Shown piece by piece: positions 6,157 through 17,844 of a DNA stretch of 22,020 bases. The DNA lies in the IMG/VR virus record IMGVR_UViG_3300006030_000125, positions 1-22,020 of that record, one strand, 5' to 3'. This DNA comes from a virus. The notes under the pieces were generated by a model, which was given only the letters and a program-made list of their open reading frames with translations, had not been told where the DNA came from and did no database searches. How positions within the stretch are numbered: position 1 is the stretch's first letter; the number at the start of each line of letters is the position of its first letter. The translations under genes were made by a program, and so were the position numbers.

Positions 6157-6552
6157 ATGAATGTAGTAGACACACTCGTAAAAGTCGAATTAGATCAACA
6201 GGAAGATTTCTTAAAGATAAAAGAAACACTGACAAGAATCGGTGTAGCTTCTAAAAAAGATAAAACACTGTATCAATCATGCCATATTCTTCATAAGCAA
6301 GGATCTTATTATATAGTTCACTTTAAAGAATTATTTATGCTGGATGGGAAACCATCCAATTTTTCAGATGAAGATAGGGCAAGAAGAAACACAATTGCAA
6401 CACTTCTAGAGCAATGGGGTTTGCTCAAGATAAATAATAAAGATCAACTAGAAAGTGGATTGGCTCCTATTAGCCAGGTGAAAATAATCTCACACAAAGA
6501 AAAAGATGAATGGGAATTGGTTGCTAAATATAATATCGGAAGAAAAAGATAA
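6157..6552 (+). CDS. regA: Translational repressor RegA
   Basis: The start is taken at ATG 6157 (131 residues) because GGTGGAG at 6144-6150 lies 6 bases upstream; an earlier in-frame GTG at 6145 lies within that SD. The sequence carries the T4 RegA core: EDFLKIKETLTRIGVASKKDK, LYQSCHILHKQGSYYIVHFKELF, then EDRARRNTIATLLEQWGLL and a final WELVAKYNIG. RegA (122 residues in T4) binds the start regions of early phage mRNAs and blocks ribosome entry, including its own mRNA and that of gp44/gp45. The start region here is likely to be self-regulated. It follows gene 62 by one base. In T4 gene 43 comes directly after regA; here about 3.5 kb of cargo genes intervene. Confidence 0.95.
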   Translation: MNVVDTLVKVELDQQEDFLKIKETLTRIGVASKKDKTLYQSCHILHKQGSYYIVHFKELFMLDGKPSNFSDEDRARRNTIATLLEQWGLLKINNKDQLESGLAPISQVKIISHKEKDEWELVAKYNIGRKR

Positions 6553-6569: not shown

Positions 6570-6989
6570 ATGACCAAATCATATGCAGATTTTATAAGCC
6601 AGCAACAAGCTAAGCTTAGAGGAGCCGGATTAGCTGATGAAGTTGTTCAAGAAGATATCGAACAAATAGATGAAGTAGGTTATCAGACAAGAAAAGATAT
6701 TGAATTTGAGCTTGGGCATGAAGATCGAGCTCGTGCCGACGCGTGGTCTAGAAGAAATAAGTGGATTCAAACGGGTGGAAGACTTTCAACGAAAGGACCG
6801 CGTCATATATTCAAATCTCATGAAAAAGCAGATCCTAATAATGTAGATCATGTTGGCATGCTTCGTAGATGGGGTGTTAAACCCACCAGTAATGGAAAAG
6901 GCTGGCATGTTGCAGCTGGGTCTATGGGTTCTGACCATATGAGAGCACTTACTGGTCAAGAACCAACAGAATGGAGCCCCAAATCTTAA
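6570..6989 (+). CDS. Unknown 139-residue protein with T4 internal-protein-like N-terminus
   Basis: I do not recognise the body of this protein. The N-terminus MTKSYADFISQQQ resembles the capsid-targeting peptide of T4 internal proteins (MKTYQEFIAEA), and residues IEQIDE-VG near 31-38 fit the (L/I)-x-E cleavage rule of the T4 head protease gp21. The rest is basic and polar (HEDRARADAWSRRNKW, GPRHIFKSHEKADP, a Gly/Trp/His-rich GKGWHVAAGSMGSDHM), with no membrane segment and no known catalytic motif. It starts 17 bases after regA with AAGGA upstream, so it can be read from the early operon, and it opens the island between regA and gene 43. An internal head protein ejected with DNA is a hypothesis. 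Otherwise it is a conserved-type hypothetical. Confidence 0.65.
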   Translation: MTKSYADFISQQQAKLRGAGLADEVVQEDIEQIDEVGYQTRKDIEFELGHEDRARADAWSRRNKWIQTGGRLSTKGPRHIFKSHEKADPNNVDHVGMLRRWGVKPTSNGKGWHVAAGSMGSDHMRALTGQEPTEWSPKS

Positions 6990-7037
6990 ATAATATTTGT
7001 TTTAACTCGTCTGTAACAATCTCCGGTTAAATAATAT
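6986..7037 (+). repeat. Two copies of TTAAATAATAT, 41 bases apart
   Basis: The 11-base word TTAAATAATAT occurs at 6986-6996, across the stop codon of the 139-residue gene, and again at 7027-7037 inside the hairpin before the PstS-like gene. It differs from the T4 late promoter TATAAATA by one early base. Both copies could be weak late promoters. Confidence 0.5.
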
Positions 7038-7052
7038 AGTGTTTAACCGGAG
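7021..7052 (+). promoter_or_regulatory. Hairpin that sequesters the SD of the PstS-like gene, with a late-promoter-like word inside
   Basis: CTCCGGTTAAA (7021-7031) is the exact reverse complement of TTTAACCGGAG (7042-7052), an 11-bp stem extended by a T-G wobble, with an 8-base loop. The right arm contains the SD CCGGAG of the next gene, so mRNA covering both arms should be poorly translated. TTAAATAA at 7027-7034 inside the left arm matches the late promoter except for one base. A start 6 bases after it, near 7040, would give mRNA without the left arm and with a free SD. In T4 the genes e, soc and 49 are known to use this arrangement. The structure is seen; the promoter use is inferred. Confidence 0.65.
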
Positions 7053-7060
7053 TAATGTTT

Positions 7061-8626
7061 ATGAAATTACAATGTATTTTATTTTCTTCCATTCTAGCCT
7101 TTTCTTCCCTCGCTCATTCTTTACCAGCCACTCAATTTGTAGAATCAGATGCCACGAATCAAGTAACGATTCGTATGTCAGGCGCAACCGCGCACGACGC
7201 AGGTCTTTTACTTTTATTGAGAAATACTACACCTGGTTCTGTAATTTGCAAACCAAATACACTCGATGTGTATATCTCTTCTGCAAAGAATGATGCTCTA
7301 TATTTTTGTACTGGTGGAGTAAACTCTGGTGCAAACAATAAGAGAATTGCAATTCTTAAGGAATCAGATGGCGGTTCTGGTGTTGGCGTAGGTCCTCTTG
7401 TTCGTGCTCAGGAAACTCTAAACATTTCTGATGGGACAACCATTACTAGGAATTGGATAGACCCAAGTGATGCTACGATTCGTGCTTCTGTCGGCGTGAC
7501 TAAGCCAGCGTCTGGCGCATTCTCTGCATATAAAGAACATGCTGGAATGCCTGCTACGGCTGTCACCACAGTCGGTGCTGCTGACGTAGGAATATCTGAT
7601 ATTGAACCTGCAAGGTTTGCACAGATTTATACTCCTGTTATAACCGCTGTTGAACTAAACGCTCTACAGATAAATGGTATCTCAGGTGTCATCTTTGGTG
7701 TACCTGTTACCAAATCAATCTATCAGAGGCTACAAGCTCTTCAGTTTGCCACGACAAGCGTATGTCATCCTAGCAATGCTGGGTATGGTTTGATTACTGA
7801 TTCAACGTCCAAGGCTTCTTCAGAAGAATGCATGCCTTCATTGAACAAGGACCAAGTTGCAGGAATGTATACTGGTACTCTTACGACATGGAGCCAGATT
7901 CGTTCTGCAATCAACAAGACTGAAACTGCTGCAAGTGTTGCACCATACGGCGCGCTTACAGACGCCAACATCTATGTTCAAAGAAGATTCGCCACCTCAG
8001 GCACACAAAGAAGTTTTGAGATCTATTTTGCTGACACAGGTTGTGTTGTAGGTGCTCGTAAGTTTCTTGATAAGACCAATGCTCTCGTCACTGAAAACTC
8101 AGGAACAAACAATGTAATCAGTGGGCTCAATGGTGCTGAAACAGCTGGCAAAGGTTCGATAGGAATTCTTACCACAGAAAAGATACCAAGCTCTTCTGAT
8201 GGTTGGAGATTCGTCAAGCTCAATGGCGCTGCGCCAAGTCTACTCAATGTAGTCAAAGGAACTTATGATCTTTATTTTGAATCCACCATTCAATGGAGAA
8301 GAGTTCCTGTTGCAGGGCTACCTGCAATCGCTACTGATAAGAAAGGTGTAGCTACATCCATTGTGAATCAGATGGGTAACCCTGCTGTTGTCTCCACACT
8401 CGATATCAGCTTCTCTCATCCTTTTGGTCGTGCTGGTCTTGTAGGAAACGCCATCAAGAATAAACTTAATGCGCCTACTACACCATTCATTGCCTCTGGC
8501 TCAAATCCTTCTGACACTTCTGACGTTTACGTTCGCCCAATTGCCTCATCCACAAGAGGTCCAAACGGCGTTCCAAATGCATGTCTTAATCCTTCCAAGG
8601 TGAATGCATCACAACCAGGATTGTAA
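7061..8626 (+). CDS. Secreted PstS-like periplasmic binding protein
   Basis: The start is set at ATG 7061 (521 residues) because CCGGAG at 7047-7052 is 8 bases upstream; the ATG at 7055 is only 2 bases away. The protein opens MKLQCILFSSILAFSSLAHSLPA, a clear signal peptide with likely cleavage after the Ala-X-Ala-like end. PstS-type signs follow: IRMSGATAHDAGL early, SLNKDQVAGMYTGTLTTWSQI (the 'seven residues then IFxGxxTxWxxI' block of phosphate-binding proteins), VQRRFATSGTQRSFEIYF (the R-x-x-SGT-x-x-x-F ligand loop) and GSIGILTTEKI. PstS captures phosphate for an ABC importer; at over 500 residues this one is much longer than typical PstS (about 320 to 350). It may bind phosphate or another anion, or be a displayed virion protein. 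It is expressed late if the hairpin switch works. Confidence 0.72.
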   Translation: MKLQCILFSSILAFSSLAHSLPATQFVESDATNQVTIRMSGATAHDAGLLLLLRNTTPGSVICKPNTLDVYISSAKNDALYFCTGGVNSGANNKRIAILKESDGGSGVGVGPLVRAQETLNISDGTTITRNWIDPSDATIRASVGVTKPASGAFSAYKEHAGMPATAVTTVGAADVGISDIEPARFAQIYTPVITAVELNALQINGISGVIFGVPVTKSIYQRLQALQFATTSVCHPSNAGYGLITDSTSKASSEECMPSLNKDQVAGMYTGTLTTWSQIRSAINKTETAASVAPYGALTDANIYVQRRFATSGTQRSFEIYFADTGCVVGARKFLDKTNALVTENSGTNNVISGLNGAETAGKGSIGILTTEKIPSSSDGWRFVKLNGAAPSLLNVVKGTYDLYFESTIQWRRVPVAGLPAIATDKKGVATSIVNQMGNPAVVSTLDISFSHPFGRAGLVGNAIKNKLNAPTTPFIASGSNPSDTSDVYVRPIASSTRGPNGVPNACLNPSKVNASQPGL

Positions 8627-8640
8627 TTTTATTGTACCAG

Positions 8641-8669
8641 TTTACTTAATTATGTGATTGTTGTATAAA
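8641..8669 (+). promoter_or_regulatory. Possible sigma70-type promoter of hsp20, overlapping the late promoter
   Basis: TTTACT (8641-8646) and TATAAA (8664-8669) are separated by 17 bases and match the -35 and -10 boxes in 4 and 5 of 6 positions. The -10 shares all its bases with the late word TATAAATA, so hsp20 could be read both early by unmodified host polymerase and late. Confidence 0.45.
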
Positions 8670-8671
8670 TA
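8664..8671 (+). promoter_or_regulatory. T4-type late promoter of hsp20
   Basis: A perfect TATAAATA. By the T4 rule transcription would start near 8677, giving a leader of about 53 bases that begins with a hairpin. Confidence 0.7.
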
Positions 8672-8703
8672 ATAGTGTCCATGCCTTCGGGGTGGATACT
8701 ATT
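8671..8703 (+). promoter_or_regulatory. UUCG-capped hairpin in the hsp20 leader
   Basis: Bases 8671-8682 pair with 8692-8703 (12 pairs including two G-T), then after one bulged G, CC (8684-8685) pairs with GG (8690-8691) around a TTCG loop at 8686-8689. UUCG loops are exceptionally stable. There is no T-run after it, so it looks more like a stabilising 5' leader hairpin than a terminator, though it may also protect the 3' end of the upstream transcript. Confidence 0.6.
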
Positions 8704-8729
8704 ATTAACCTTGCTACGGGAGGTCTACA

Positions 8730-9341: not shown

Positions 9342-9366
9342 AAGGGGGAGGCAACTCCCCCTTTTT
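9342..9366 (+). terminator. Rho-independent terminator with GCAA loop
   Basis: AAGGGGGAG (9342-9350) pairs with CTCCCCCTT (9355-9363) around a GCAA tetraloop, followed by a run of T to 9366. It ends the hsp20 / 38-residue transcript and isolates the endolysin from read-through. Confidence 0.92.
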
Positions 9367-9369
9367 GAT

Positions 9370-9377
9370 TATAAATA
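9370..9377 (+). promoter_or_regulatory. T4-type late promoter touching the endolysin start
   Basis: A perfect TATAAATA directly after the terminator. Start of transcription is expected near 9382-9383, which is the start codon itself (9382), so any mRNA from it would be leaderless or nearly so. Confidence 0.55.
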
Positions 9378-17768: not shown

Positions 17769-17844
17769 TCCCCGGTAGTTCAGCTGGTAGAACGGTGGAC
17801 TGTTAATCCATATGTCGTAGGTTCAAGTCCTACCCGGGGAGCCA
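17769..17844 (+). tRNA. tRNA-Asn (anticodon GTT)
   Basis: A full cloverleaf of 76 bases. The acceptor is TCCCCGG / CCGGGGA, D stem GTTC / GAAC, anticodon stem GTGGA / TCCAT with loop CTGTTAA and anticodon GTT at 17802-17804, variable ATGTC, T stem GTAGG / CCTAC with loop TTCAAGT, discriminator G, and an encoded CCA at 17842-17844. It reads AAC and AAT. It lies 5 bases after the peroxiredoxin stop and 9 before the next ATG, so it must be cut from an mRNA. Confidence 0.96.

Follow-up and report, generated by a model that had tools for sequence, protein, structure and literature searches.

Can a gene that lies downstream of the early or middle genes of a T4-like phage be held silent on their read-through RNA, and what would then release it? 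The question is raised by a 22,020-nucleotide stretch of viral DNA (IMG/VR record IMGVR_UViG_3300006030_000125, positions 1 to 22,020; hereafter the window), a T4-like phage fragment with the gene order 45, 44, 62, regA, one ORF, a binding-protein-like gene, hsp20, endolysin and 43, every one of them on the + strand. The encoded DNA polymerase shares about 50% identity with those of marine cyanophages, and the phage is represented by a second contig (L001/G001), which prolongs the window leftward; a tRNA-Asn (GTT) gene stands amid the phage genes at 17769-17844. A first-pass annotation had read the leader of the binding-protein-like gene as a late-gene translation switch, i.e., a hairpin that hides the Shine-Dalgarno sequence (SD) and carries a promoter word. 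Read-through RNA from the regA operon is plausible, because the binding-protein-like gene lies downstream on the same strand, a terminator scan from regA to this gene found no clear terminator between them, and in the relative L103 the conserved leader starts directly after the regA stop codon.

The 11-bp perfect stem described over the SD is indeed present (window 7021-7052, + strand: CTCCGGTTAAATAATATAGTGTTTAACCGGAG; pairs 7021-7031/7042-7052, loop of 10 nt) and is the longest of the inverted repeats in the window. No perfect stem of at least 11 bp, with at least 5 G-C pairs and a loop of at most 12 nt, occurred in any of 60 dinucleotide shuffles of the whole window. Folded as RNA, the hairpin is predicted by RNAfold to close 13 pairs (7021-7033/7040-7052), with an extra outer helix (AACA/UGUU) around it, and its minimum free energy of -20.4 kcal/mol (z -4.4) was equalled in 0 of 200 shuffles; a search of Rfam gave no family match for the hairpin up to E=1. 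The GGAG lies wholly inside the right arm, of which it forms the end, and in the predicted fold of the read-through RNA the SD and/or AUG of the binding-protein-like gene is sequestered (Table 1).

Table 1. Features of the regA to binding-protein-like gene region, in window coordinates
Feature	Position	Strand	Basis
Translational repressor gene regA, which closes the upstream 45-44-62-regA run of T4 core genes	6157..6552	+	Pfam Translat_reg 2.3e-44, PHROG 242
Small ORF in the regA-to-leader interval; swapped or missing in relatives	6570..6989	+	Comparison with relatives
Conserved leader words TTTAAC-N5-TGTAACAAT	7001..7020	+	TTAAY-N5-TGTAACAWT in 5/5 phages
Rival sigma70-like pair GTAACA-16-TATAGT	7013..7040	+	Conserved in 4/5 leaders; regional match count not above chance
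Left outer-helix strand (AACA)	7015..7018	+	RNAfold
Hairpin left arm	7021..7033	+	11 perfect pairs from 7021-7031, 13 as RNA
Late-promoter-like box GTTAAATA, core TAAATA	7026..7033	+	Predicted start near G7039; activity inferred
Hairpin right arm, carries SD	7040..7052	+	RNAfold, shuffle test
Shine-Dalgarno GGAG	7049..7052	+	Sequence; 8 nt before ATG 7061
Right outer-helix strand (UGUU)	7056..7059	+	RNAfold
Gene of the 521-aa protein ('PstS-like')	7061..8626	+	Signal-peptide-like N-terminus, weak periplasmic-binding-protein signature

The first-pass annotation had proposed folding both transcript forms. The computed cost of opening the region from SD to AUG is 18.4 kcal/mol in an RNA with both arms and 3.8 kcal/mol in an RNA starting 6 nt past the TAAATA box. 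In the T4 gene e control, the corresponding values are 15.9 and 14.6 kcal/mol for the long against 4.1 and 1.6 kcal/mol for the short forms (its two late promoters), and the lock modelled here would be about as strong as that of gene e.

The gene is present in five distinct forms, namely those of the window (with L001 and L003), L092 (with L090 and L104, the L104 contig being without the leader), L103, L007 and L002, whose proteins are 79% (L092), 78% (L103), 72-73% (L007) and 94% (L002) identical to that of the window. The genes between regA and the leader vary, with one ORF in the window, one, partly different, in L092, two others in L007 and none in L103; in L002, which is likewise T4-like, the gene occupies an unrelated locus. 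All five leaders begin with TTAAY-N5-TGTAACAWT and fold so as to hide the SD in a hairpin. Within the 45 nt of the hairpin element, the sole change between L092 and the window is a compensatory one, from a G-C to an A-T pair at 7026/7047; L007 has A-T at 7025/7048 in a rebuilt stem, and L103 keeps 11 contiguous outer pairs plus a one-base bulge. L002 retains the outer words alone, and the fold of its leader nonetheless covers both SD and start (z -5.9). The SD is held less tightly in L007 and L002, at a mean unpaired probability of about 0.25. Identity at fourfold codon sites of the gene is no higher than 43-44% among the window, L092 and L103, while stem and loop are nearly fixed, which indicates strong selection on the leader for pairing; the structural alignment was made by hand and covers the four to five independent leaders in the searched collections. 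The stem itself, the compensatory changes that conserve it and the predicted gap between long and short RNA are thus all in place, and from the comparison it is nearly certain that selection has kept this hairpin as an RNA structure in which the SD is buried. The window, L092 and L103 also share one and the same unpaired loop, TAATATAGTG, which speaks for an additional signal inside the hairpin, at the level of the DNA.

For the start codon, ATG 7061 appears most likely, because it lies 8 nt from the SD and is the start used in the relative L007, the in-frame ATG 7055 being spaced merely 2 nt from the SD. The 521-aa product is probably exported, judging from its N-terminus. The earlier label 'PstS-like' did not hold up at curated thresholds, all domain matches being sub-threshold: PBP_like_2 scores 23.8 bits against a cut-off of 27 (19.6-24.5 bits in six homologues, with the match covering the middle of the protein) and TIGR02136 23.1 against 206.6, so that no curated cut-off for membership of the PstS or periplasmic-binding-protein superfamily is passed. 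Comparison with solved structures gave no significant match for the protein, and AlphaFold returned no usable model of it (pLDDT 27.6); it has perhaps a periplasmic binding-protein fold. No such protein was found in the phage collection; viral contigs hold it behind five distinct leaders, plus truncated copies, and genomes yielded one homologue, in a MAG. As a separate observation, the leader and signal peptide of L002 (L002:3004-3075, against window 7061-7125) are almost completely different from those of the window in genes that are 94% identical, and near-identity starts at the mature protein (LPATQF), as if a front end for export and control had been swapped by recombination.

The promoter word placed by the first-pass annotation inside the left arm, TTAAATAA (7027-7034), lies there in part and runs on into the loop. 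The box itself, GTTAAATA, differs from TATAAATA by two mismatches, which occupy its two 5' positions, and so falls outside the T4 late promoter defined as TATAAATA or a one-base variant of it; an exact late consensus, considered for the hairpin site, was rejected, being absent there. The window and L007 carry GTTAAATA as the box, L092 and L103 carry ATTAAATA, and L002 carries GCTAGATA, where even the core is altered (TAGATA). In the window the second position of the box is T, against A in all clear late boxes of the same phage. The TAAATA core is at the right spot for a late promoter, in a box two positions off consensus and with a sigma70-like pair overlapping. In the L001/G001 contig, the density of ATAAATA words is about 18 times as high upstream of genes as within them, and such words precede genes of the capsid and tail-tube region in the same phage; from this density and placement, a T4-type late promoter system is apparently in use. 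Of 50 late promoters in T4, 32 match the consensus perfectly and most of the rest carry one change, and in Aeh1 the late consensus itself differs at -13/-12 (PMC2988020), the two positions changed in the present box. Since late promoters vary in this way, GTTAAATA is by analogy plausible as a functional late-promoter variant. That expression would be 'late only' is something we infer, because the box departs from the late consensus and the sigma70-like pair at the same place is conserved too. The logic of the lock would hold for either promoter, because either mRNA would be without the left arm; the timing would differ.

The same lock could thus work with a host sigma70-type promoter (GTAACA-16-TATAGT), possibly helped by an activator that binds the conserved TTAAY-N5-TGTAAC; the short mRNA would then appear early or in response to host signals, and the hairpin would do no more than silence read-through RNA. 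The 16-nt spacing of GTAACA and TATAGT is kept in the window, L092, L103 and L007, and TATAGT lies in the unpaired loop, which three phages share unchanged although their fourfold codon sites are saturated. However, pairs matching the consensus at 9 of 12 positions are no commoner in the region than chance predicts (28 found against 34.5 expected), L002 loses TATAGT yet keeps the lock, and pairing in the outer helix partly explains the conservation of GTAACA; we consider this reading unlikely. A Pho box was also considered, as TTTTAAC and CTGTAAC stand 11 nt apart in the window. The idea was dropped, because the distance to TATAGT exceeds the usual spacing in Pho promoters and pairing in the outer helix accounts in part for both words.

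Burial of the SD and covariation require no promoter at all, and a lock opened instead by RNase processing, a protein or temperature would account for both. It is the less expected in that the loop is conserved though pairing does not constrain it, that the TAAATA core stands where T4 e, I-TevI and others have a late promoter (PMC2988022, PMC3014915), and that a stem of 13 pairs and -20 kcal/mol would seem too stable to serve as an RNA thermometer; a promoterless lock is accordingly improbable. The symmetric changes would preserve a DNA palindrome, at which a bound repressor would block a promoter, as well as they preserve an RNA stem, but bulges break the symmetry in L103 and L007 with RNA pairing kept, and the sequence of L002 is wholly different with the RNA fold remaining, which leaves this reading highly improbable. 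A role of the hairpin, which a loose terminator scan lists, in ending regA operon transcripts by intrinsic termination is hardly credible, given a tail (TAATGTTT) without a U tract, a right arm that is the SD, properly spaced to a conserved gene, and a textbook terminator elsewhere in the window (9342-9363).

The geometry of a switch with an internal promoter was sought in 137 box-gene pairs of T4-like sequences, with a gap between long and short RNA of at least 8 kcal/mol as criterion. Eight pairs matched, three of them leaders of the binding-protein-like gene and the others preceding genes for GIY-YIG, HNH and SegE-type proteins, endonuclease VII (the product of T4 gene 49) and one unassigned product. 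The geometry was thus found at TAAATA words in 8/137 cases, against 0/60 and 1/81 at control words; this enrichment is at most suggestive, three of the eight being leaders of a single gene family and the sites also being overlapped by several other control words. As homing endonucleases (PMC2988022) and gene 49 (PMC3014915) are described users of the device, the blind scan recovered the known user class. Hairpins that hide the SD and have TATAAATA or AATAAATA in their left arm or loop were recorded at L020:1777-1839, L123:10689-10751, L123:15526-15588 and L124 before 18031 (minus strand), preceding the GIY-YIG, HNH, SegE-type and endonuclease VII genes of these other T4-like contigs.

The leader resembles that of T4 gene e (PMC3014915) in having the SD in the 3' strand, a TAAATA box in the 5' strand or loop, a position downstream of early genes and a similar computed strength; in contrast, T4 e has two perfect TATAAATA boxes where a single off-consensus box is found here, and the present stem is longer and G-C-rich, in front of a non-lysis gene. 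With the I-TevI, segB and mobE leaders (PMC2988022), it shares mobile cargo in an early or middle operon, a hairpin and late promoter of its own (mobility and late promoter being putative here) and an SD about 8 nt before the AUG, whereas the cargo is predicted to be an exported, binding-protein-like product and not an endonuclease. T4 gene 49 and soc follow the same logic (PMC3014915), and the endonuclease VII gene of G009 (L124) surfaced in the scan; the genes and sequences differ, and the likeness lies in the logic.

The neighbouring leaders have arrangements of their own. That of hsp20 (8664-8723) contains a perfect match to TATAAATA (8664-8671), which extends into a hairpin with arms of 14 nt (8668-8681/8693-8706) and loop CCTTCGGGG, which is kept in L103, L104 and L007 and leaves the SD (8718-8723) uncovered, as in seg43(25) of Aeromonas phage 25; late hsp20 RNA would begin with a short 5' hairpin. 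The terminator at 9342-9363 is followed immediately by TATAAATA (9370-9377) and the endolysin ATG (9382), without an SD, and the late endolysin transcript would be leaderless or nearly so. The same succession of terminator, TATAAATA and endolysin is found in L103; L104 has a different endolysin, and TATAAATA just before a GGGGGAG hairpin.

The single bacterial homologue found, in a gammaproteobacterial MAG (L242, 59% identity), has a leader with an ordinary AAGGAG and without TAAATA, TGTAACA or an SD-hiding hairpin of this kind, and the lock is therefore seen on phage copies alone (n=1 bacterial gene). At L242:2929-7512, this homologue adjoins a long ORF resembling an exoprotein of the filamentous-haemagglutinin type (two-partner secretion), which may hint at what the family does. 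The binding-protein-like cargo may move among T4-like phages as a cassette with its own lock and internal promoter, a tentative idea to which we give somewhat less than an even chance; if it is true, the cassette could settle in an early operon without early expression, i.e., the strategy of homing endonucleases applied to a secreted cargo.

In the proposed mechanism, read-through RNA from the regA operon would carry both hairpin strands, and the hairpin would bury the SD and the bases up to the start codon, so that the long RNA would yield little protein. The left arm and loop would also contain a promoter, for which a variant of the gp55 late type (GTTAAATA, initiating near G7039) is the best candidate; its short mRNA would have the right arm alone and a free SD, and the protein would be made when this promoter is active, probably late. 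A complete switch with an internal promoter of either type is probable; that the lock depends on a promoter of the late type is the version we favour, with more reserve. Of the translation switch first annotated, the lock is well supported by the compensatory changes, the five phages with varied upstream genes, the fold energy and the bacterial leader without the hairpin, and the promoter half is weakened by the off-consensus box and the conserved sigma70-like pair.

The kind of device is known; within the literature searched, the cargo gene and the phage group are new to it, and a T4 control device is thereby extended to uncultivated aquatic T4-like phages with a cargo that is neither lysozyme nor a homing endonuclease. 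The arrangement suggests that early production of the exported protein is selected against, and it offers a sequence signature for spotting late-only cargo genes embedded in early operons.
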